A DNA stretch of 48,279 nt from an uncultured Candidatus Saccharibacteria bacterium. Lineage in GTDB: Bacteria; Patescibacteriota; Saccharimonadia; Saccharimonadales; Saccharimonadaceae. The notes beneath the pieces were generated by a model. It did not search any database. It had not been told where the DNA came from and saw only the letters and a program-made list of their open reading frames with translations. Location of the stretch: NCBI GenBank assembly GCA_947166895.1, contig CAMVFY010000004.1, positions 1 through 48,279 on the forward strand, in the 5' to 3' direction. Shown here one piece after another: positions 8,542 to 43,588 of the stretch (position 1 is the stretch's first letter; every line of letters starts with the position of its first letter). The position numbers and the translations under genes are program-made.

Positions 8542-8739
8542 CTATTTACTAAAATCTTCTTTTAGAACTTCTATTTCGTTCTGCAAATCTTTCAATTCCT
8601 TTTGCAGTTCTTTTGCAAGCAGGATTGCCGACTTGTATTTTTTCGTGGCTTCACCCAACTCAAAGTCGTCAGAATAAAACCATTCGACCTCATCTTCAAG
8701 TTCTTTAATTTTTTGGTTTAACGTTTTATTCTCTTGCAT
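8542..8739 (-). CDS. xseB: Exodeoxyribonuclease VII small subunit
   Basis: Small coiled-coil protein directly downstream of and overlapping xseA; E..LGEA...Y..A..L. Confidence 0.8.
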   Translation of the reverse strand: MQENKTLNQKIKELEDEVEWFYSDDFELGEATKKYKSAILLAKELQKELKDLQNEIEVLKEDFSK

Positions 8740-9901
8740 GTACCTCCTTTATTTCAGCGCTTATTTCGTTATCAACTGTTGTAATTTTTACAACATTACC
8801 TACATCAATTTCCCCTCTCACGATTGCATATCCCCTCTCCAAAATCTTGTCGGGATTTAACGCCTCTAAGATTTTGATTTTATCCAAAAGCTCTTTTTGA
8901 TAGCTTGATATTTTAATTTGCACCACATTATAAACTTGCATTGTTTTTTCATACTGTTCTTTCCACAGCTTATCGATCTGAAATAACAAATTATCCCCCG
9001 CACGCCTTATCATTGTATTAACCTCAGAAGTTAGCGCCTCACGATCAAAGGTCAAAAGTTCCGCCGCGTTGGATGGAGTTGAAGCCCTGACATCCGCCGC
9101 AAGGTCCGCCAGTGACTCATCTACCTCGTGACCAATCCCCGTAATCACCGGAATTTTTGAAGCCGCAATCGCTCGCACCAGTTGTTCATCGTTAAAACAC
9201 GCCAAGTCATCAGCCGAACCTCCACCTCTAACAATCGCAATTGCTTCAACTTCTCCATGTTCGTTGAAAAACTTTAGAGCCCGGATAATTTGGTCAGCCG
9301 CGTCCATACCCTGCACCTGAGTGTGTGCAACCTGAATCTTTGTTCCACCCCACCTCGCATTAAAAATCTTAATAAAATCCGCATACCCCGCCGCTGCTGT
9401 ACTAGAAATTACGCCAATTTTTGATAACCCCCGCGGTATTTCGCGCTTCTTAGTTGCATCAAATAGCCCTTCCTCGCCAAGTTTCTTTTTTAATATTTCG
9501 TAGGCTTTTTTAAGGTTTCCCTCACCAACCGGCTGCACCGTTTGCACCGTAAAAGAAAACTTTCCCCACTTTGTGATTTTTGGCACACCTCTAACTATCA
9601 CTTTCATTCCGTCTTCAATCGGAATCCGAAGCTGATACAAAGACATAAAGCAACTCACCGACGACTCCTCGTCTTTAATATCAAAAAATACCCACTTCCC
9701 TTGATTTACCTTAAAACTCGCCACTTCACCCACAATTGTCACACTAGAATATGCGTACTCTAACGTCTGGTTTACAACACTAATAAACTCCGAGGGAGTC
9801 ATGGTGTCGACTTCATTTGAAAACATCTGCTTTGGGACCATAAGCTTGGGCGAGCGCCCTTGAGCGTGTCCCAAAGCAGGTGTTTCAAATGAGTTACTCA
9901 C
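8726..9901 (-). CDS. xseA: Exodeoxyribonuclease VII large subunit (GTG at 9901; alternative ATG at 9826 past the palindromic element)
   Basis: VTIVGEVASFK..QGKWVFFDIKDEESSVSCFM, IGVISSTAAAGYADF, AIVRGGGSADDLACFND, GIGHEVDESLADLAADVRASTPSNAAEL. Confidence 0.93.
   Translation of the reverse strand: MSNSFETPALGHAQGRSPKLMVPKQMFSNEVDTMTPSEFISVVNQTLEYAYSSVTIVGEVASFKVNQGKWVFFDIKDEESSVSCFMSLYQLRIPIEDGMKVIVRGVPKITKWGKFSFTVQTVQPVGEGNLKKAYEILKKKLGEEGLFDATKKREIPRGLSKIGVISSTAAAGYADFIKIFNARWGGTKIQVAHTQVQGMDAADQIIRALKFFNEHGEVEAIAIVRGGGSADDLACFNDEQLVRAIAASKIPVITGIGHEVDESLADLAADVRASTPSNAAELLTFDREALTSEVNTMIRRAGDNLLFQIDKLWKEQYEKTMQVYNVVQIKISSYQKELLDKIKILEALNPDKILERGYAIVRGEIDVGNVVKITTVDNEISAEIKEVHARE
9811..9892. 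repeat. Nested palindromic element (copy 2) at the 5' end of xseA; core family A
   Basis: Arms CATTTGAAAACATCTGCTTTGGGAC / GTCCCAAAGCAGGTGTTTCAAATG around core ccataagcttgggcgagcgcccttgagcgt. Confidence 0.9.
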
Positions 9902-11258: not shown

Positions 11259-12400
11259 TATTTCTTCCTTAAAATTATTATATCTCTCGCTACGATTTGT
11301 TCAGGCCGATGATAAAGTAGCCCCTCGCGCGATCTATTATTAACATTATACCCCATAGTTTCAATTTCGTCAAGAATATCAAGCCGCTCATACTCACCGC
11401 TTCCCCGTAACCATGCCGGCACCGCAATCACTACTGGCGTGCCAGCCTCGATTTGCCCCGCCAAATTCTTCAAAAATCCTAAAACAATCGCTCCACACTC
11501 CTGTTTTTGTTCTTTTAGCGCCATTTCAGTTGGTACCTGCGAAAAAGGCTTCCCCAGATATCCCTCACACGCCACTGCATCGATTGGTTGCTCCCAACAA
11601 AACGAAGTCGCATCGCCTTGTGAGATCTGAAATAGAATATTTTCGGATTTCACGAGCCAATCGAGATTCTTTTTGCTATATTCCACCATCCGTTCGCTAA
11701 TGTCAGTTCCATACGCTTGGTATCCCATAAGTACTGCCTCCTGCAGCACCACTCCAGTCCCGCAAAACGGGTCAAGAATCGTAGAGCCAGGCTTTAAGGG
11801 CCCGCAAAGATTTATTAAAATCTGCGCTAGTTTCGGCGGAAGCATTCCAACCTTTGCATCTCGCGCCGGCCGCGCCTGGTCGCGCTTCGCGTACGCATCA
11901 ATGTCTTGCACGCCAATCACCCTATACCAACCGTTATCAACTTTTATTAGTTCCACCTTCCGTTCATTTTTGCCCGACAAACCATTATGAAGCGACGTCG
12001 CTGTCGATAGCGCCGCGTCTTTGTTTTCAACCACTCGCACACTCCGTCCGTGCCGCGTCAAAATCTTCTTCAATTTAAGCGCTTCTACTGTCGCCGATTT
12101 TCGCGATGCCTTCTTTGAATAATCTGACACTCCCAAAGTAATCTTCCCCTCCGGCAATCTTTGCAAATACTCTAGCGGCTTTTCTTCAAGCTTCACCGCC
12201 AATTTAAGGATCCCGCCAAAGCGATTGATATCGATACTGATATCGGATTCGAACTCAACATGAGCGGGTGACAGACCTGGAGAGGCCCCCCCGCTGAGCG
12301 CACGCGAAGTGGGGGAGGAAAAGGTCCGGCAGGACCCACTCAGAGTGAGTTCTGCTATCGAAATCTCCGGTTGCCTTCCAAGTACCGCTAAATACTTCAT
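11258..12400 (-). CDS. TRM11-like tRNA guanine-N2 methyltransferase family protein
   Basis: ILDPFCGTGVVLQEAVLMGYQAYGTDIS SAM motif; RDAKVGMLPPKLAQILINL; N-terminal MKYLAVLGRQPEISIAEL. Confidence 0.8.
   Translation of the reverse strand: MKYLAVLGRQPEISIAELTLSGSCRTFSSPTSRALSGGASPGLSPAHVEFESDISIDINRFGGILKLAVKLEEKPLEYLQRLPEGKITLGVSDYSKKASRKSATVEALKLKKILTRHGRSVRVVENKDAALSTATSLHNGLSGKNERKVELIKVDNGWYRVIGVQDIDAYAKRDQARPARDAKVGMLPPKLAQILINLCGPLKPGSTILDPFCGTGVVLQEAVLMGYQAYGTDISERMVEYSKKNLDWLVKSENILFQISQGDATSFCWEQPIDAVACEGYLGKPFSQVPTEMALKEQKQECGAIVLGFLKNLAGQIEAGTPVVIAVPAWLRGSGEYERLDILDEIETMGYNVNNRSREGLLYHRPEQIVARDIIILRKK
12251..12352. repeat. Nested palindromic element (copy 3) inside the methyltransferase gene; core family D
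   Basis: Arms GAACTCAacatGAGcGGGT / ACCCaCTCagagTGAGTTC; inner GACCT/AGGTC and CCCCC/GGGGG; encodes LSGSCRTFSSPTSRALSGGASPGLSPAHVEF. Confidence 0.8.
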
Positions 12401-13713
12401 TTTACAATCAAGAACTTATTCTTCCCCTTCTTAATAATCGCTGTTTGGTTAAGCTCAACATCTTCGGACACTTTCACCCCATTGATAGTAATCGCCCCCT
12501 GAGAAATAAACTCACGCGCTTTTTTCTTCGATTCTGCCAACCCATTATTAACCAAGGCATCAACCAGCATCACGCCCTTTTTCACCGTTGGTAGATATGT
12601 AGCAAACTCGCTGATTTCATCCGCCGTAAACTCCGCAAAATTTGTATCTCGTGCAAAAAGTAGCGACGACAAACCTTCCACTGCTTCGGCCGCTTCTTTA
12701 CCATGCACCACCGTCGTCGCACCTCGCGCCAAAGCATTCTGCGCGATCCTTTCCCCCGGATTTTCAAAATGCCGCTTTAAGACGTCCTCAATCTCGTCTT
12801 TTTCTAGCAAAGTATAAATCTTAATCAAATATTCCACACTTTCGTCCGGTTGATTTAGCCAAAACTGGTAAAAATCAAAGATCGAAGTGTAATTACCGGA
12901 GCCATTATCTGACGAAGCGAGCCACACAGCATTCCCCTCGGACTTGCCAAACTTTCGCCCAGTCACCGGGTCAATCACGAGTGGTGTTGACCACACATCC
13001 GCTGTTGCATCTTCAAGCCGCTTAATTAAATGTATCCCCGAGGTACAGTTACCGTATTGATCTGCCCCGCAAAGTTGCAAATCCACCCCACAAGTACGAT
13101 ACAGATGTAAGAAATCATAGCCCTGAATCAGAGTGTACGAAAATTCTGCATAAGATATTCCCGAACCGCCCTCGCCAATCCGTTTTTGTACAAACTGCCG
13201 ATCCAGTAGTTGCGTCATCGAAAACACCTTCCCGACTTCCCTCAAAAAATCGAGATATTTCATATCACGAAACCAGTCGTAGTTGTCAACCATCGTAACC
13301 CGAAACGGTTGGGCGGGTCCTGCCGCCACTTTTCCCCCATTCTCGTCAAGCTCGATGGGTGACCCCCAAGTGGCGTCACCCGCCCCACTTCCTATCACGC
13401 GCTCAATCTGTGCCTTTATGCACAATTTATTATGCTCTACCTCGTCAAGAGACTTCAAATCTCGCTCGCCGTTTTCTTTCGGATCACCAATCTGACCGGT
13501 CGCCCCGCCTACTAATAAATACGGCTGGTACCCATGCCGCACAAAACATGCACACATCATTAAAGCCGCCAAGTTCCCAATTGTTAGCGAATCCGCCGAT
13601 GGGTCCGCCCCCCAGTAAAACTTTTTTGACTCCCTAGTGTCCAAATCTGCTGGATTTTCAATCGTCGTTTCCGCAGCAAAACCACGATAGATTAATTCTT
13701 CCGATAACTTCAT
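12397..13713 (-). CDS. tyrS: Tyrosyl-tRNA synthetase
   Basis: YWGADPSADSLTIGNLAALMM, NNYDWF-like DNYDWF, YTLIQGYDFLHLY, CGADQYGNCTSGIHLI, KFGKSEGNAVWL, C-terminal S4 domain. Confidence 0.95.
   Translation of the reverse strand: MKLSEELIYRGFAAETTIENPADLDTRESKKFYWGADPSADSLTIGNLAALMMCACFVRHGYQPYLLVGGATGQIGDPKENGERDLKSLDEVEHNKLCIKAQIERVIGSGAGDATWGSPIELDENGGKVAAGPAQPFRVTMVDNYDWFRDMKYLDFLREVGKVFSMTQLLDRQFVQKRIGEGGSGISYAEFSYTLIQGYDFLHLYRTCGVDLQLCGADQYGNCTSGIHLIKRLEDATADVWSTPLVIDPVTGRKFGKSEGNAVWLASSDNGSGNYTSIFDFYQFWLNQPDESVEYLIKIYTLLEKDEIEDVLKRHFENPGERIAQNALARGATTVVHGKEAAEAVEGLSSLLFARDTNFAEFTADEISEFATYLPTVKKGVMLVDALVNNGLAESKKKAREFISQGAITINGVKVSEDVELNQTAIIKKGKNKFLIVK
13311..13385. repeat. Nested palindromic element (copy 4) inside tyrS; core family D
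   Basis: GGGCGGGTcctgCCGCCACTT...CCCATtctcgtcaagctcgATGGG...AAGTGGCGtcACCCGCCC. Confidence 0.75.
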
Positions 13714-19009: not shown

Positions 19010-19903
19010 CTATTTGCGTCGCGCCGCTAGTCCACAATATGCTGCTATCATAATCGCGATAATACCCCCGGCCGCAATCGCCACATAGTCAATCGCCTCA
19101 GCACTTGCGTTCTCGGTTTTAGTATTACTACCCGTATTTGGCACCGGGATTTCTGGCTCTTCCGGCTCCTCTGGCACCACTGGTTCCTCTGGTAGTTGGT
19201 ATGGCATTCTCAAATAAAATGGGCCAAAAATCACCGAGTCAGGTATCCCAAATTCTTCTACACTAATTAGTCCATCGTAATCCGTAACATCAAATATAGT
19301 CAAGATTCCAGTATCAGAATCAAAGCTGTAGTGTCCATCCTCGGTAATACTTCGACAAAATGTATGGCCAAAAAACGGCTCTACTCCAAAACATAAAAAG
19401 TTTAGCGGTGGCATTAATTGCACTTTTAGTTCTTTTCCATTTAATTCCATAGATAGTTCACTCGTATCAAAATCTACAATCTTACCGATATCCACATTAA
19501 AATATGTCAATTTTTTATTATTGGTTATGTCGACTTCCTCTACCAAATCTCCAATCTCTGCCAAATTCAAATGTTCAAGCTCAAGATTATGTGAAAGATC
19601 AATCGAGGGTATCCAGCTATACCTTAAAACAAGAACTTTTAATCCCAAAAGCTTCTCGACACCATCCGCACTTGTAATATTAGCGCATTGCACCTCCTCC
19701 AGCCTTGCTAGTTGTTCGTCGTTAAGCCCAGTCTCAGGGATGGCTTCGTTAGGATTCTCGACTATGAATGCAGCCTCGACGCAATCATAAAAAGTTTGGT
19801 CCGTAAATCCCGCCGACATACTCGCAAAAGCCTCCGGCGCACTAAAAAACCACGCGCCGCCGACTACCGCCCCGATTATAATTGCAATTGTTTGTTTTTT
19901 CAT
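19010..19903 (-). CDS. Cell-surface protein with LRR-like segment and VPNTG...TM...RRK putative sorting signal
   Basis: Signal peptide; LKVLVLRYSWIPSIDLSHNLELEHLNL; Glu/Pro-rich stalk; VPNTGSNTKTEN plus C-terminal TM and RRK. Confidence 0.7.
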   Translation of the reverse strand: MKKQTIAIIIGAVVGGAWFFSAPEAFASMSAGFTDQTFYDCVEAAFIVENPNEAIPETGLNDEQLARLEEVQCANITSADGVEKLLGLKVLVLRYSWIPSIDLSHNLELEHLNLAEIGDLVEEVDITNNKKLTYFNVDIGKIVDFDTSELSMELNGKELKVQLMPPLNFLCFGVEPFFGHTFCRSITEDGHYSFDSDTGILTIFDVTDYDGLISVEEFGIPDSVIFGPFYLRMPYQLPEEPVVPEEPEEPEIPVPNTGSNTKTENASAEAIDYVAIAAGGIIAIMIAAYCGLAARRK

Positions 19904-20024
19904 GTTGATGTTGCACCTTTCTATTTTAGAGCATAAACGTTTTTCAAAAAATTGTCAAGCCTTTTTATCACTATTTTTAACTTTGTGTTATAATCACCTT
20001 AAGTTTAAATCAAGCGAGGTAAAA

Positions 20025-21725
20025 ATGTTAAAAATCAAAGGCCAAAAAAGAGATCCTTTTGTGCCACCACTCAGTATTTCAGCGCTCTTTAATCTATCCA
20101 GCTTTCGCCATTGGAACCAAATTGTCGTCAACCAAAAAGAATTTGATTTTACTCGCCGCGAGCTTAAATCTGATCGCAAAATTCTCGCCAAAGCTTTCCT
20201 TGCGCTCGGCATCAAAAAAGGCGACATCATCACTGTTGCAACCGGACGTAGCATGTATGACAACATCCTTATTTTTCTCGCCGCCAACAAAATCGGCGCC
20301 ATCGTGAGTTTTTTGGACGAAAAAACTCCCCGCGAAACGCTGCTTCATTACATCCAAGAATTTAACTCTAAGCTAGTCATTACATATAAATACAACGACA
20401 AACGCATCAAAGAGCTAAAACACGACGCCAAAACCATCCAAAACATCCTTAATCTTGATGGCAAATTAATCGATGAGGGGGATATCGACGATTCGCAAGA
20501 AGAAGATATCGAAATGTCCGTCCTTGATCATATCTGGTTAGGCGCACAAACAGTTCGCAAAGTCGCCGAAAAATATCGCGGGCATATTCCAAAAAATATC
20601 TTCGGTGGCAAAAACGAAGCCATAGTTACTTTTACTTCTGGCTCCACTTCCGGCCCCAAGCCTATGGTTTTTACCAACAAAGCCCTGATTGCCGCCGCAT
20701 TATTTTCCAAAGCCGCTTCCGGCATCAAAATGTGGGATAAAGAAATCCGCACTTGGTTTTCTTTTGTTAAATTTGACTGCCCCTACGGATTTTGGACCTC
20801 GGTCCTAACTCCCATCATTGGCGGCAGTTCCGTCATCCTCACCCCCGACTTAGACAAAGACAATTACCCTTATTACTTTGGCAAAGAAATTAACGTCGTC
20901 CAAGCCGTTCCGCTTCTCTTTTCAATGCTCCCTAATGTTTTACCAGAAGATCTAGACCTGTCTTCTGTCAAAATGTGTATTTCTGGTGGCGAGCGTCTCG
21001 AAAAGCAAGCTTCGCTCGATATTGCCGATTATTTTGCCGCGCATGGTGCCACCGTCAAAATGTGTAACGGTTATGGCGTCGGAGAATGTCTCGGCTCCAT
21101 CACTGTCGCTGTTGGCTCTACTTACCACCCCGACACCGTCGGGAAAGTTGTCCCCGGCGCACACGTTATGGTTCTAGATCCCGAAACCGGCGAAGAACTC
21201 GACTTTGGTAAGACTGGCCTACTTTATGTCTCCGGCAAACACACCCTAAAACGCTACTTCAATCGCCCCGAACTCACCGAAGAAAAAATCCTGAAAATCC
21301 GCGGCCGTAATTATATCAACACCGGCGATCTCGCCACCGTTTCCGAAACCGGCTTCGTTACTTTAGTCGGTCGCGCCACTTTCTTCATTAACACCGTTCC
21401 AGCCAAAGTTTATTACGAAGTCGTCCGCGCGTCCATTGCAAGAAACGAAGTTGTCAAAAGCTGTTACGTCGTCAAAATGCCCGACGCTAAACTTGGCTGG
21501 GCTTCCTGTGCCTTTGTGGTCGTAAATGATGGCATCGGCAAAAACAACGAAACTCGTCGCAAAATTGCTAAAGAATCCACGACGCCCTTCTATATCGGCA
21601 AGCGCCGCATTACCCTAAAGGAATACGAAATTCCCCGTCGCGTAGTCTTCCTTGACGAGCTCCCCCTCACCCGCGCCAACAAAATCGACTTCCGAAAACT
21701 CGAACGCATGGCGAAAGAATTATAA
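20025..21725 (+). CDS. AMP-dependent synthetase/ligase family protein (start MLKIKGQKRD)
   Basis: VTFTSGSTSGPKPMVFTNKAL, NGYGVGECLGSITV, INTGDLATVSETGFVTLVGR. Confidence 0.85.
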   Translation: MLKIKGQKRDPFVPPLSISALFNLSSFRHWNQIVVNQKEFDFTRRELKSDRKILAKAFLALGIKKGDIITVATGRSMYDNILIFLAANKIGAIVSFLDEKTPRETLLHYIQEFNSKLVITYKYNDKRIKELKHDAKTIQNILNLDGKLIDEGDIDDSQEEDIEMSVLDHIWLGAQTVRKVAEKYRGHIPKNIFGGKNEAIVTFTSGSTSGPKPMVFTNKALIAAALFSKAASGIKMWDKEIRTWFSFVKFDCPYGFWTSVLTPIIGGSSVILTPDLDKDNYPYYFGKEINVVQAVPLLFSMLPNVLPEDLDLSSVKMCISGGERLEKQASLDIADYFAAHGATVKMCNGYGVGECLGSITVAVGSTYHPDTVGKVVPGAHVMVLDPETGEELDFGKTGLLYVSGKHTLKRYFNRPELTEEKILKIRGRNYINTGDLATVSETGFVTLVGRATFFINTVPAKVYYEVVRASIARNEVVKSCYVVKMPDAKLGWASCAFVVVNDGIGKNNETRRKIAKESTTPFYIGKRRITLKEYEIPRRVVFLDELPLTRANKIDFRKLERMAKEL

Positions 21726-21800
21726 AAATACCATTTTGAGGACCATAAGCTTGGGCGAGCACCCTTGAGCGTATCCGAAAAATGGTATTTTATAATTCTT
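21715..21800. repeat. Nested palindromic element (copy 5) between convergent ligase and galU genes; core family A
   Basis: Arms AAGAATTATAAAAATACCATTTTgaGGA / TCCgaAAAATGGTATTTTATAATTCTT around ccataagcttgggcgagcacccttgagcgt. Confidence 0.9.
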
Positions 21801-22626
21801 ATCTACAAACTACATTGTTTGCATGTAGCCAACCTTCAACCGAACCACCATCAAGATATTCACCGGTGGTTGGCGCCACCCGCATTACTCCGCCATCCTT
21901 AATATATTCATCAATCGGGTCGGTCACCATGTATTCCTGGTCCTTCGGTCCAAAATCATTCTCCTCAACATATTTTACGATTCGCTTTAGTAAATCAGGC
22001 GCCATAATATATTTCGATACATTAATTAGATTCGACGGTGCCTCCTCTGGAGTAGGTTTTTCCACCACGCCAACCAATTTCCCATCCTCTTCCGACAAAA
22101 CGCCGTACTTTTCGACATCCTTCTTATCAATCTCTACACCTAAAATCGCCGACTCACCCTCACCAGCCGCATGGATCAAAGCCTCCGCTGCCGATTCACC
22201 TCCTGGATTCCAAATAAAATCATCGCCCATAAACACTAGCACTGGCTCGTCAATCTTATATTCTTCTACCACCATCGCAATCGGCACCGCCGTACCATAT
22301 TTACCCGCCGGGTCCTGTACGGTATAGTGAATCGTCACATCATCCGGCAAAGTTTTTGCGAGTTTCAACCTATCCTCTTTACCCCGGTCAATCAAATACT
22401 GATTAAGCGCCAAATTATCTTTGTAAAACTCCTGCACCTGGCAAGGTTCTACATTGGATATCACCATATAAATATCCTTAACGCCAGCCTTTATGAGCTC
22501 TTGCACCGAATAGTCCACTAGCGGCCGATTCCCCACCGGGAGCATTGATTTTTCTATAATTTTGGTAATTGGCAGCCGCCTCGTCCCCCATCCGGCGACT
22601 GGAATAATCGCTTTAGAAATTTTCAT
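21799..22626 (-). CDS. galU: UTP-glucose-1-phosphate uridylyltransferase
   Basis: KAIIPVAGWGTRRLPITKIIEKSMLPVGNRPLVDYSVQE; FMGDDFIW; VVEKPTPEEAPSNL. Confidence 0.93.
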   Translation of the reverse strand: MKISKAIIPVAGWGTRRLPITKIIEKSMLPVGNRPLVDYSVQELIKAGVKDIYMVISNVEPCQVQEFYKDNLALNQYLIDRGKEDRLKLAKTLPDDVTIHYTVQDPAGKYGTAVPIAMVVEEYKIDEPVLVFMGDDFIWNPGGESAAEALIHAAGEGESAILGVEIDKKDVEKYGVLSEEDGKLVGVVEKPTPEEAPSNLINVSKYIMAPDLLKRIVKYVEENDFGPKDQEYMVTDPIDEYIKDGGVMRVAPTTGEYLDGGSVEGWLHANNVVCR

Positions 22627-35770: not shown

Positions 35771-38248
35771 CTACTTACTGCTAAAATATTCCGTTAGCGT
35801 CCGCAAAACCGCTGGTTGATTTTCTTGAATTAACTTCACTCGCGCCCGAATCTCATTTTCACCAATTTGTATCGCCCTTGAAAGTGCTAGATCTCTTCTC
35901 ATCGGTCCAAAAAACTTCACAAACTCGTCAAGCTCATCTTCAGTTCTCGCGAGTCTCGCCACGAACATCGGATAGTCACTAAGCGTCTTGTCCCCGCCAG
36001 TCTTTTTCACGAAATCCCAATTCTTTGTTAGCCACTCAAATGTCTTCTTACGCGCCTTCGGGTTACGGTAAAGATAAATAAATAAATACAACTGGTCTTG
36101 CGGTTTCACGATTTCAACATTACCAAGTAGCGCTAACATTTTTTCCAGCTGCTTTTCGTCTTTTACCAAACACGCCGCCGCGAGATAGTCAAACTTTACA
36201 TCCGGATCTACCACCGACTTATACTTTTCTAAATAAGTCTCAACTATTTTCGGCTCTAAATATACCTTTGCACTCAAAATATCGTCACGAATTTCTTTAT
36301 CCATCTCTTCGTAATTTTCAGAATACATCGCTGCTAGCTTCTTTAGCCGCGCCTCATCTTCCGCAAAATAATCAAGTCCGAGCAAATTTGCCCTCAGCCG
36401 AATTTCCTCTTCGCCATCATTATCACGAGTCACCAAGCCAACTTCATTTAATTTTTCGTCAACCAAATCCAACACGTATTTTTTTAGTAATTTTTCACCT
36501 TCTGATTCGGCGTCAAAGTATATTCTCAAATTCGCAATTAGTGACGATACCTTATTCCATACCGCCGGCGCCGATTCGTTCTTAAATTTTAAAGCCAGTG
36601 ACACTAGCGATGCGGCACTCTGCAACCCCGATTTCGTAATTAAATCCCGGTCAATCAAAAGCCTCAACTTTTCTTCTAGCCCCAACCTGTCAAAATTCGC
36701 CAACCTTTCATTAAACTCGGTCTCACTCAAATTCAACACATAATGTCCCGACATATCTTCAGTAATTTCCGGTAGTGGCCAATCCGAATCCTCCATCGGC
36801 CCATCTAACAAAAACCGCTTCTGTGAATATTTTGTAAAATCGCCTTCCTCACTCGTGATTACCGGATATCCCGGCCGGTCAATAAACGCGTGCATTAATT
36901 CCTTCGGATCAAACTCCGCATAGGGCTTCAAACTCGCCCACAAATCATCACCGGCTGTATTTTGATATTTATATTTATCAAAATAATCCACTAGCCCTTT
37001 GCAAAAGTTCTCCCAACCCATCAAACGAATTAACATCAACATTAACCGCGCACCCTTAGCATACACAATTGCCGAATCAAACAGCGTAGCAATCTCCGCC
37101 GGATCGTTTACCTCCTGGTGCACCGACTGCACACCAGTGTAAGCATCACGGAGCAAAGCCGCATAAGTATCGCCCGTAAAAAACCCTTCAAAAATCTTAT
37201 ATTCTGGATGTATTGCATCGACCGCAAAATACTCCATCACGCTCGCAAACGATTCATTTAACCATAAGTCGTCCCACCACTTCATTGTTACAAGGTCCCC
37301 AAACCACTGATGCGAAAGTTCGTGCGCCACAGTTAGTGCCACAGACTTCTTGGTGCCGAGCGTGGCATTATCAGAAACTAGCATCATCGATTCGCGATAA
37401 GTTACTAACCCCCAGTTTTCCATTGCTCCCGCTTCAAAATCCGGCAACGCCACTTGATCTAACTTCTTTAGAGGATATGGTTCCTTAAAATTATCGTCGT
37501 AAAACTCCAAACTTTTTGCTGCAATCTCGTTTGCATAATCCACCGCATCAATGCTCTGCGCCAGAGTCGTATAGGTTGTAATCTCGACACCATGCGCATT
37601 TGTCACCGTTTTGCCGTGAAACTTTCCAATCACCCACGCCAACAAATATGTGCTCATTTTTGGCGTCGGTTCAAACACCGAGGTTAAAAGAACTTCCGGC
37701 GCATTGCGGAGCGCGGCAGCGCGAGCGTTAGCGCGCGAGCCCCGTGGCGACGGGCGCGAGCGACGCGGCGACGGATAGTTCTTTAACCTTGGTGTATTTG
37801 ACAACACCAAATCATCCTTATCGGTCGTGATCGAAAGTTCAAACACGGCTTTCGCCGCCGGTTCATCAATACACGGAAACGCCTCGCGAGCATAATGACT
37901 CTCAAATTGCGTCGCCACAATTATCTCGGTCTTGCCATCATATTCATAGGTCGAAAGATACGCCCCCTCCATATTTTCGTTCAATCTACCATTATAATAT
38001 ATGGCAATCTCCGCTTCACCTAGCGGCACCTTAAAAATTGTAAGTTCCTTTCCATCCGCCTTAAATTCAGCCTTCTTGCCATCCACAAGAACATCCGTGA
38101 CTTTTAAATCTACTGCGTGAAACTTTACCGTCTCGTCTAGCACTTGACCACTAACCGTCACCACCCCACTAATCGTCTTTTTGTGCTTATCAATGGCCAA
38201 ATCTAATACGTACTTTTCTGGCTTAAAATAATCCAGGAACCTCTCCAC
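35771..38248 (-). CDS. M1 family aminopeptidase (PepN-like)
   Basis: GAMENWGLVTYRE; VAHELSHQWFGDLVTMKWWDDLWLNESFASVMEY; FEPTPKMSTYLLAWVIG. Confidence 0.95.
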   Translation of the reverse strand: MERFLDYFKPEKYVLDLAIDKHKKTISGVVTVSGQVLDETVKFHAVDLKVTDVLVDGKKAEFKADGKELTIFKVPLGEAEIAIYYNGRLNENMEGAYLSTYEYDGKTEIIVATQFESHYAREAFPCIDEPAAKAVFELSITTDKDDLVLSNTPRLKNYPSPRRSRPSPRGSRANARAAALRNAPEVLLTSVFEPTPKMSTYLLAWVIGKFHGKTVTNAHGVEITTYTTLAQSIDAVDYANEIAAKSLEFYDDNFKEPYPLKKLDQVALPDFEAGAMENWGLVTYRESMMLVSDNATLGTKKSVALTVAHELSHQWFGDLVTMKWWDDLWLNESFASVMEYFAVDAIHPEYKIFEGFFTGDTYAALLRDAYTGVQSVHQEVNDPAEIATLFDSAIVYAKGARLMLMLIRLMGWENFCKGLVDYFDKYKYQNTAGDDLWASLKPYAEFDPKELMHAFIDRPGYPVITSEEGDFTKYSQKRFLLDGPMEDSDWPLPEITEDMSGHYVLNLSETEFNERLANFDRLGLEEKLRLLIDRDLITKSGLQSAASLVSLALKFKNESAPAVWNKVSSLIANLRIYFDAESEGEKLLKKYVLDLVDEKLNEVGLVTRDNDGEEEIRLRANLLGLDYFAEDEARLKKLAAMYSENYEEMDKEIRDDILSAKVYLEPKIVETYLEKYKSVVDPDVKFDYLAAACLVKDEKQLEKMLALLGNVEIVKPQDQLYLFIYLYRNPKARKKTFEWLTKNWDFVKKTGGDKTLSDYPMFVARLARTEDELDEFVKFFGPMRRDLALSRAIQIGENEIRARVKLIQENQPAVLRTLTEYFSSK
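37676..37794. repeat. Nested palindromic element (copy 6) inside the aminopeptidase gene; core family B
   Basis: Arms CACCGAGGTTAAAAGAACT / AGTTCTTTAACCTTGGTG; core gcgcgagccccgtggcgacgggcgcgagcgac (37733-37764). Confidence 0.88.
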
Positions 38249-41494: not shown

Positions 41495-43588
41495 TTATTC
41501 AAAAATCGGCAAATCTTCCGGGAATGGATCAAAATCCTCTTCTGAAAAATCAGAAAAATCCTTAAATCCGTCTCCGTCTTCATCTTTATACCCTGCCGAA
41601 CCATACGGATTATACCCCAGCTCCATTAAGAATCTTGACGGCATATTATAGTTCCGATCACCAAACGTAAATCTCGAAACCGCATAGGTCAAAAACAGCC
41701 TCTGCATCGCCCTCGTCATCCCCACATAAGCCAACCTTCGTTCCTCTTCCAGCTCATCTTCGTTATCAAATGCTCGACTCCCCGGAAACAACCCTTCTTC
41801 CATTCCAACCATAAACACTACTGGGAATTCTAGCCCCTTAGCCGCATGCATAGTCATGAGTGTCACTGAGTTTCTTTCAGACGCTTCGTCTGCCGACGAC
41901 ATCAAACTCGCATCCGCCAAAAAGTCTTCCACCGTATCATACACCGAAGCATTGGACTGTAATACTTCCAGGTTTCGCATCCGATCCTCTGCCGCCGGCG
42001 TTCCGTCGTCGGTCAAAGTCTCAAAATCAAAATAATCCACCGCACGTTTCACCACGTCTCCCGGATTTTCAATCTGTCTGGCTTCGTGTAAAAAGTTCAC
42101 CAGCCGAGAAAAACCGTTTCTGGCCCTGGTTGACTTTAATATCTCCACCAAATCTGGGTTAAATAAAGGCTCTTCGTCTTTCAAAGCATCAAATAAACTG
42201 ATGATTTTATTTAGTGACACTTCTCCAATTCCAGATAAAACATTCTGCACTACTCGACCGAGACTCACTTTGTCTCGCTGATTTACGCATAAACGCAAAA
42301 TCGCTAGCACATCCTTAACTTCTTTCCGATCGTAAAATCTTACCCCGCCCACAATTTTATACGGAATTTGCATACTCATAAATGCTTTTTCAAAAGCATA
42401 CGATTGCGCATTCGTCCGGTAAAGCACCGCAAAATCCGCAAAATCCGGATATTCCCTTTGTAAATTCAAAATCTTAAGCGCCACAAAGTTCGCTTCGGCA
42501 TTTTCATCCGGCAAAGATTCAATATCCACCGGCTCACCTTTCCCGGCTTCTGTAAATAGGGTTTTATCCGTCCGCGTTTTATTCTCGCGGATAATTTTTT
42601 GTGATGCCTCAAGGATATTTCCTGTCGAACGATAATTTTGCTCCAGTTTTATCACCTTCGCACCCGGAAAATCCTTCTCGAAATGCAAAATGTTTGTAAA
42701 ATCCGCCCCTCGCCACGAATAAATTGACTGCCAATCATCTCCCACCACACAAATGTTTTTCTGATCGTTCACGAGCAGCCTCACAATCTGATACTGCACC
42801 GTGTTCGTGTCTTGATATTCATCGATCAAAATATGCTCAAACCTATTCTGCCACTTTTTTCGCACTTCCGGATGTTTTTGCAAAATCTCCAACTCTTTCA
42901 AAAGCAAATCATCAAAATCTAGCGCCCCTGCTCTGCTTTTTTCGACCTCATACTTTGCAAAAATTTTTGCGATTTTTTGTTGATTTGGATAAAAAGCGCT
43001 CGCCGCATATTCTTCCGGCCCATTACCTTTATTTTTTTCACTTGAAATAATCGACTGAATTGATTTTGGTTTAAGTTGTTTATTGTCCGACAACTTCAAA
43101 TCTTTCATAATCCGCCGAATTAACGACACTTGGTCATCTGTATCATAAATCACAAAGTTCCGGTCTAGCCCCGCCGCGTCCGCTTCCATCCGTAGAATCT
43201 TCACTGCAATTCCATGAAATGTTCCCATATATGGCATAAAACTTCGTGGAGGTTCAGGAGCTTCTGTATGTTCAATTCGAGGGCTTCCGGAGGTTACGAC
43301 CGAGGATGAGGGCGCGAGCCCCGTGACGACGGGAGCGAGCGACCCGTCCCGAGAGCGAACATACAGAAGTTTCCATAACCTCTCGCGCATTTCCTTTGCT
43401 GCCTTATTCGTAAAGGTTACTGCAAGAATCTGATGCGGCTGTATTCCGTGCGTAATTAAATTTGCAATTCGATGCGTCAAAGTTTTAGTTTTACCAGATC
43501 CCGCTCCAGCCAAAATCAAAAGCGGGCCACTAAGCGTTTCCACTGCTTCTTTCTGCGCCGGGTTCAAGCCTTCAAAAATCGCATCCAT
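41495..43588 (-). CDS. pcrA: UvrD/PcrA-family superfamily 1 DNA helicase
   Basis: LNPAQKEAVETLSGPLLILAGAGSGKTKTLTHRIANLI; VTFTNKAAKEMRERL; ILIDEYQDTNTVQY; LTMHAAKGLEFPVVFMVGMEEGLFP; RRLAYVGMTRA. Confidence 0.96.
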   Translation of the reverse strand: MDAIFEGLNPAQKEAVETLSGPLLILAGAGSGKTKTLTHRIANLITHGIQPHQILAVTFTNKAAKEMRERLWKLLYVRSRDGSLAPVVTGLAPSSSVVTSGSPRIEHTEAPEPPRSFMPYMGTFHGIAVKILRMEADAAGLDRNFVIYDTDDQVSLIRRIMKDLKLSDNKQLKPKSIQSIISSEKNKGNGPEEYAASAFYPNQQKIAKIFAKYEVEKSRAGALDFDDLLLKELEILQKHPEVRKKWQNRFEHILIDEYQDTNTVQYQIVRLLVNDQKNICVVGDDWQSIYSWRGADFTNILHFEKDFPGAKVIKLEQNYRSTGNILEASQKIIRENKTRTDKTLFTEAGKGEPVDIESLPDENAEANFVALKILNLQREYPDFADFAVLYRTNAQSYAFEKAFMSMQIPYKIVGGVRFYDRKEVKDVLAILRLCVNQRDKVSLGRVVQNVLSGIGEVSLNKIISLFDALKDEEPLFNPDLVEILKSTRARNGFSRLVNFLHEARQIENPGDVVKRAVDYFDFETLTDDGTPAAEDRMRNLEVLQSNASVYDTVEDFLADASLMSSADEASERNSVTLMTMHAAKGLEFPVVFMVGMEEGLFPGSRAFDNEDELEEERRLAYVGMTRAMQRLFLTYAVSRFTFGDRNYNMPSRFLMELGYNPYGSAGYKDEDGDGFKDFSDFSEEDFDPFPEDLPIFE
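43249..43382. repeat. Nested palindromic element (copy 7) inside pcrA/uvrD; core family B
   Basis: Arms GAGGTTcaGGAgCTTCTGTATGTTC / GAACATACAGAAGttTCCatAACCTC; core gcgcgagccccgtgacgacgggagcgagcgac (43312-43343). Confidence 0.9.

Follow-up and report, generated by a model that had tools for sequence, protein, structure and literature searches.

A small palindromic element of one Saccharibacteria genus that probably inserts together with an inverted copy of adjacent host sequence

The Rickettsia palindromic elements (RPEs) are small palindromic repeats of several families that lie in frame within protein genes in the reduced genomes of host-dependent bacteria (PMC10969869). Inverted repeats of host coding sequence are also found within genes as the coding palindromes of Nematomorpha mitochondria and as quasipalindromes, for which template switching has been proposed (PMC6649704, PMC8794818). 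Two further systems bear a likeness to the element reported here: MITEs, which are short, non-autonomous, dispersed and hairpin-forming, and REP/REPIN sequences with RAYT, which form bulged hairpins in many copies.

The Saccharibacteria element shares with the RPEs its dispersal as a palindromic repeat in one lineage and its in-frame insertion in protein-coding genes; its core and inner arms are shorter (53 bp compared with about 150 bp), and its outer arms are locus-specific inverted copies of host sequence. To our knowledge, host-derived inverted outer arms have not been described for RPEs. Compared by description and not by sequence, the element may be said to work like an RPE, and we do not file it as one. 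In contrast to MITEs, its copies show no direct target-site duplication, as direct repeats of the flanks exceed the control in 0 of 68 copies (11.1 versus 10.5, a measure that could miss a duplication of 2-3 bp), and no terminal inverted repeat is common to the copies further out than 9 nt from the core. No MITE-style partner transposon was found in searches for Y1_Tnp and RVT_1 only; the IS200-type Y1 transposase (Y1_Tnp) is absent from the genome, a 93% complete draft, while RVT_1 gave two matches. The element differs from REP/REPIN in this lack of a Y1 transposase, in lying mostly within genes and in combining a conserved center with variable arms, and it differs from the Nematomorpha palindromes in its conserved, apparently mobile core, with which those are not described. 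We consider it likely that this is a non-autonomous selfish palindromic element of approximately 53 bp (9+35+9), belonging to a single Saccharibacteria genus, whose insertion adds an inverted copy of some 13-25 nt of host sequence. The evidence that the core is mobile and that the outer arms derive from the host comes from comparing genomes.

The window, by which we mean the whole 48,279-nt stretch of DNA that was analysed, holds one copy of the element between two convergent genes and a second copy within xseA:

21715-21740, plus strand: left arm of the junction hairpin, 26 nt, AAGAATTATAAAAATACCATTTTGAG
21741-21775, plus strand: conserved core, 35 nt, GACCATAAGCTTGGGCGAGCACCCTTGAGCGTATC, with a closing stem and a bulged GCTT-GGG(C) hairpin with a GAGC loop
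21776-21800, plus strand: right arm of the junction hairpin, 25 nt, CGAAAAATGGTATTTTATAATTCTT
21715-21731, plus strand: outer left arm, locus-specific and apparently host-derived, having no inverted partner in empty relatives; contains the ligase stop
21732-21740, plus strand: inner left arm, 9 nt, pyrimidine-rich with a GAG end; weakly conserved part of the element by information content
21776-21784, plus strand: inner right arm, 9 nt, purine-rich, by information content
21785-21800, plus strand: outer right arm, the apparent inverted copy of the ligase 3' end; its last two bases overlap the galU stop
19902-21725, plus strand: open reading frame (ORF) of an AMP-binding (acyl-CoA-type) ligase by Pfam; the outer left arm is made up of its final codons and stop
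21799-22626, minus strand: ORF of a galU-type nucleotidyltransferase by Pfam, convergent with the ligase
9820-9885, plus strand: second family A copy, running antisense to the xseA ORF (8726-9901, minus strand) in its N-terminal part

The arms of the junction hairpin pair at 23 positions of 26/25, with one extra A on the left. Folded as RNA, this strand reaches -33.2 kcal/mol (z -5.3), a stability equalled by none of 200 shuffles, and its folding as DNA (-20) is also far better than that of shuffles. The arm score of 38 was matched by none of the 668 pairs of left and right arms dealt between different copies. An earlier sequence-only reading had placed both stop codons inside the inverted arms and had taken both gene ends to be inverted copies of each other. 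The ligase stop (TAA, 21723-21725) does lie within the left arm, while the galU stop (21799-21801) overlaps the right arm only in its final two bases and is not wholly within it; likewise, the arms do pair, and duplication is apparent for the ligase end only. The gene which that reading called a ligase carries AMP-binding domains according to Pfam, and the core that it noted also at xseA is indeed present there, at 9836-9870 within the ORF.

Comparison of the intergenic region in relatives bears out the view that the inverted gene ends accompany the core. The three junction relatives without a core (L155, L160 and L173) have no hairpin and show no inverted gene ends; in these, ligase and galU nearly abut or overlap, the stop codons of the L155 genes having two bases in common. 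The L155 ligase has AAAGAACTA where that of the genome studied here (G000) has AAAGAATTA, and then runs seven codons further. Because L155 keeps AAAGAACTA and extends in this way, the ligase end would be the original and the right arm its inverted copy, and the ligase of G000 appears from this comparison to be shortened relative to that of L155. The junctions of three other relatives (L154, L156 and L167) contain different cores, each flanked by local sequence in inverted copies; in L167 these include a 26-bp inverted copy that takes in the ligase 3' end and its stop. The ligase end has diverged in the empty sequences available for comparison with the junction copy, and the middle of the left arm has no traced source; the best automatic split of the junction, against L160, accounts for 87% of the arm bases at low identity, so that the argument for this locus rests on the absent inverted repeat and on the reading of the relatives' sequences. 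The best explanation of these observations is that an element came between the convergent genes and left a second, inverted copy of the ligase 3' end.

In a pattern scan of the 660-kb genome the core came up eight times and the reversed control not at all; blastn and a covariance model added a ninth family A locus, on C7. The orthologue of the xseA site in L089 also has a family A copy, and that in G077 does not. In a public genome collection, every match to the core pattern came from Saccharibacteria, Ca. Nanosyncoccus alces among them. The covariance model, built on the core and short arms, matched 108 of 170 genomes in the genus to which Ca. Nanosyncoccus alces belongs, with up to 29 copies per genome, and, among 247 genomes drawn from the order and spanning 132 genera, none outside this genus. 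The core was absent from the viral contigs searched, Rfam gave no match at gathering or permissive thresholds, and a search of open-access literature for Saccharibacteria papers about palindromic elements or hairpin inverted repeats found none.

The arms of each copy match one another and not those of other copies. Across 68 distinct copies the mean arm score was 31.9, compared with 5.6 when right arms were dealt to other copies, and the arms of 66 of the 68 scored above the 99th percentile of this control. Sequence conservation is confined to 9+35+9 nt (53 bp): information content runs at about 1-2 bits for each core base and mostly about 0.5-1 bit in the flanking nine bases, with more at the first, and falls to near zero from position 10 outward, save for a weak A/T preference at positions 13-16. 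Outside this 53-bp unit, the inverted similarity of the two 40-nt flanks was 22.9 against 11.0 for the control, exceeding the control maximum in 49 of 68 copies. These data uphold the earlier suggestion of a mobile-looking core with an inverted duplication of host 3'-end sequence around it, and extend this arrangement across the family. A fixed mobile unit does not account for the variation that is also seen in the 9-nt inner arms. In the outer helix, 9 of 11 pairs have changes on both sides, and arm mismatches, counted relative to the core strand, are of the G.U type in 50 cases and of the A.C type in 17 (p 7e-5, for copies that are not fully independent); in antisense copies the counts are 21 and 3. 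This excess, which simple DNA copying does not predict, points to a stage at which the core strand is single-stranded, as RNA or DNA.

The long host-specific hairpin of every copy would be accounted for if insertion joins the element to an inverted copy of adjacent host DNA. In the mechanism that we propose, the core would be inserted and, being self-complementary, would fold back at its newly joined 3' end; by a template switch, this end could then prime copying of a short stretch of the host strand upstream before rejoining. Such fold-back copying would yield an inverted duplication of limited length, although the arm-making step is the inferred part of the scheme. The RVT_1 search identified two reverse transcriptases in the genome, and nothing links either to the element; they lie at L266 1095-2399 and L267 1264-2400, have repeats some 300 nt long close by, and are possibly of the diversity-generating retroelement type as judged by gene arrangement.

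The main rival to insertion-coupled copying places arm growth later: a small hairpin would arrive first, and rounds of quasipalindrome template switching as the DNA replicates would then extend the palindrome outward into host sequence. Hairpin stems are known to arise and to be repaired through template switching (PMC8794818), which has also been proposed for the coding palindromes of Nematomorpha (PMC6649704), and the arms of the Saccharibacteria copies do vary in length and hold small indels, as such growth would have it. Against this, no copy with only the 9-nt inner arms was singled out, the clear family A inserts cluster at 66-78 nt, and bulges cluster near positions 9-10, the extra bases of right arms falling 9-10 nt from the core, near the conservation boundary, which suggests one junction. 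We regard later growth as an unlikely sole source of the arms; quasipalindrome correction may also act alongside insertion-coupled copying.

Orthologous sites with and without the element bear on whether the palindrome was there before the core. Some mobile elements prefer hairpin targets, and the core could by the same token have entered the loop of a palindrome already present in the host. A pre-existing palindrome should leave close to 100% of the bases of both arms at the empty site, compared with about 50% at most for a single native arm. We compared 33 filled and empty pairs, comprising the family A loci of G000 and G077 together with the ligase-galU junction: none of the 33 empty sites keeps an inverted repeat, the median arm score is 12 at empty sites and 37 at filled ones, and the empty site accounts for a median of 35% of the bases of both arms, less than one arm's worth. 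Insertion into an existing hairpin is already contradicted by these figures and is very improbable. The relatives are only about 70-90% identical, which leaves the exact breakpoints and the side copied uncertain, and the closer pairs sought among congeners were all too diverged to fix the breakpoints. By eye, the host-derived arm in TsaD had seemed always to be that on the 5' side of the gene; a wider set divided 5 to 6, and we rejected this rule.

The sequence-only reading had also raised co-option of the junction hairpin as a bidirectional intrinsic terminator, in keeping with its strong stem and its position between convergent genes. A terminator scan found no terminator-like site, neither strand has a T run 3' of the stem, and the relatives with an empty junction manage without any hairpin. 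Moreover, about two thirds of copies lie in open frames in both orientations: of 71 copies, 24 run in the sense direction of a long open frame and 23 against it, and the other 24 are intergenic. Termination is thus a highly doubtful role for the hairpin. The least credible alternative, a structured regulatory RNA kept by selection locus by locus, would accommodate the G.U excess and the stem covariation, but the host genes are unrelated, the strand is random relative to the gene and presence or absence varies among orthologues.

The copies within genes mostly preserve the reading frame, and in many genes the frame stays open through the element. In the clearest coding pairs the family A inserts are of 66, 69, 72, 75 or 78 nt, and of the 69 indels that distinguish G000 from G077, 52 have a length divisible by three (p 1e-12). 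Genes such as tsaD and gyrA have in-frame hairpins only where the element is present, with EDHKLGRAPSSVSEED as an example of the peptide inserted in GyrA. Across the genus, two loops of TsaD have been struck in different genomes by different cores, and the arms match their own locus in each case. At the second tsaD site, L088 and L262 carry an apparently decayed element that has lost its right arm and is still in frame.

Five further core families, B, C, D, E and F, have the same architecture as family A. Those in the window are as follows:

37694-37769: family B hairpin (core ..GAGCCCCGTGGCGACGGGAGCGAGCG..) with locus-specific inverted arms, in a peptidase M1 ORF
43277-43358: family B hairpin, likewise with locus-specific inverted arms, in a UvrD-type helicase ORF
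12257-12350: family C hairpin (GGGTCCTGCC.../...GTCACCC), in a methyltransferase ORF
13312-13383: family C hairpin, in a TyrRS-like ORF

In G077, families C and E include nested-looking modules in which an A-like core sits within a GGGTCCTGTC/GNCACCC collar, as if built concentrically. Some of families A-F are unrelated in sequence. We suggest, tentatively, that all of them share one putative machinery, which would represent a new mode of mobility: it would insert a core and make an inverted and not a direct duplication of the flank. The G.U excess hints that the core strand may pass through an RNA or single-stranded stage in this process.

The target duplications produced by ordinary transposition are direct. 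A small element whose insertions in gyrA, tsaD and other genes, across a whole genus of episymbionts, leave the target copied in inverted form would have an insertion signature of its own, and the family supplies many natural pairs of filled and empty sites on which the origin of palindromes can be tested. The element also offers an explanation for odd in-frame peptides in Saccharibacteria proteins, which annotation accepts at face value.
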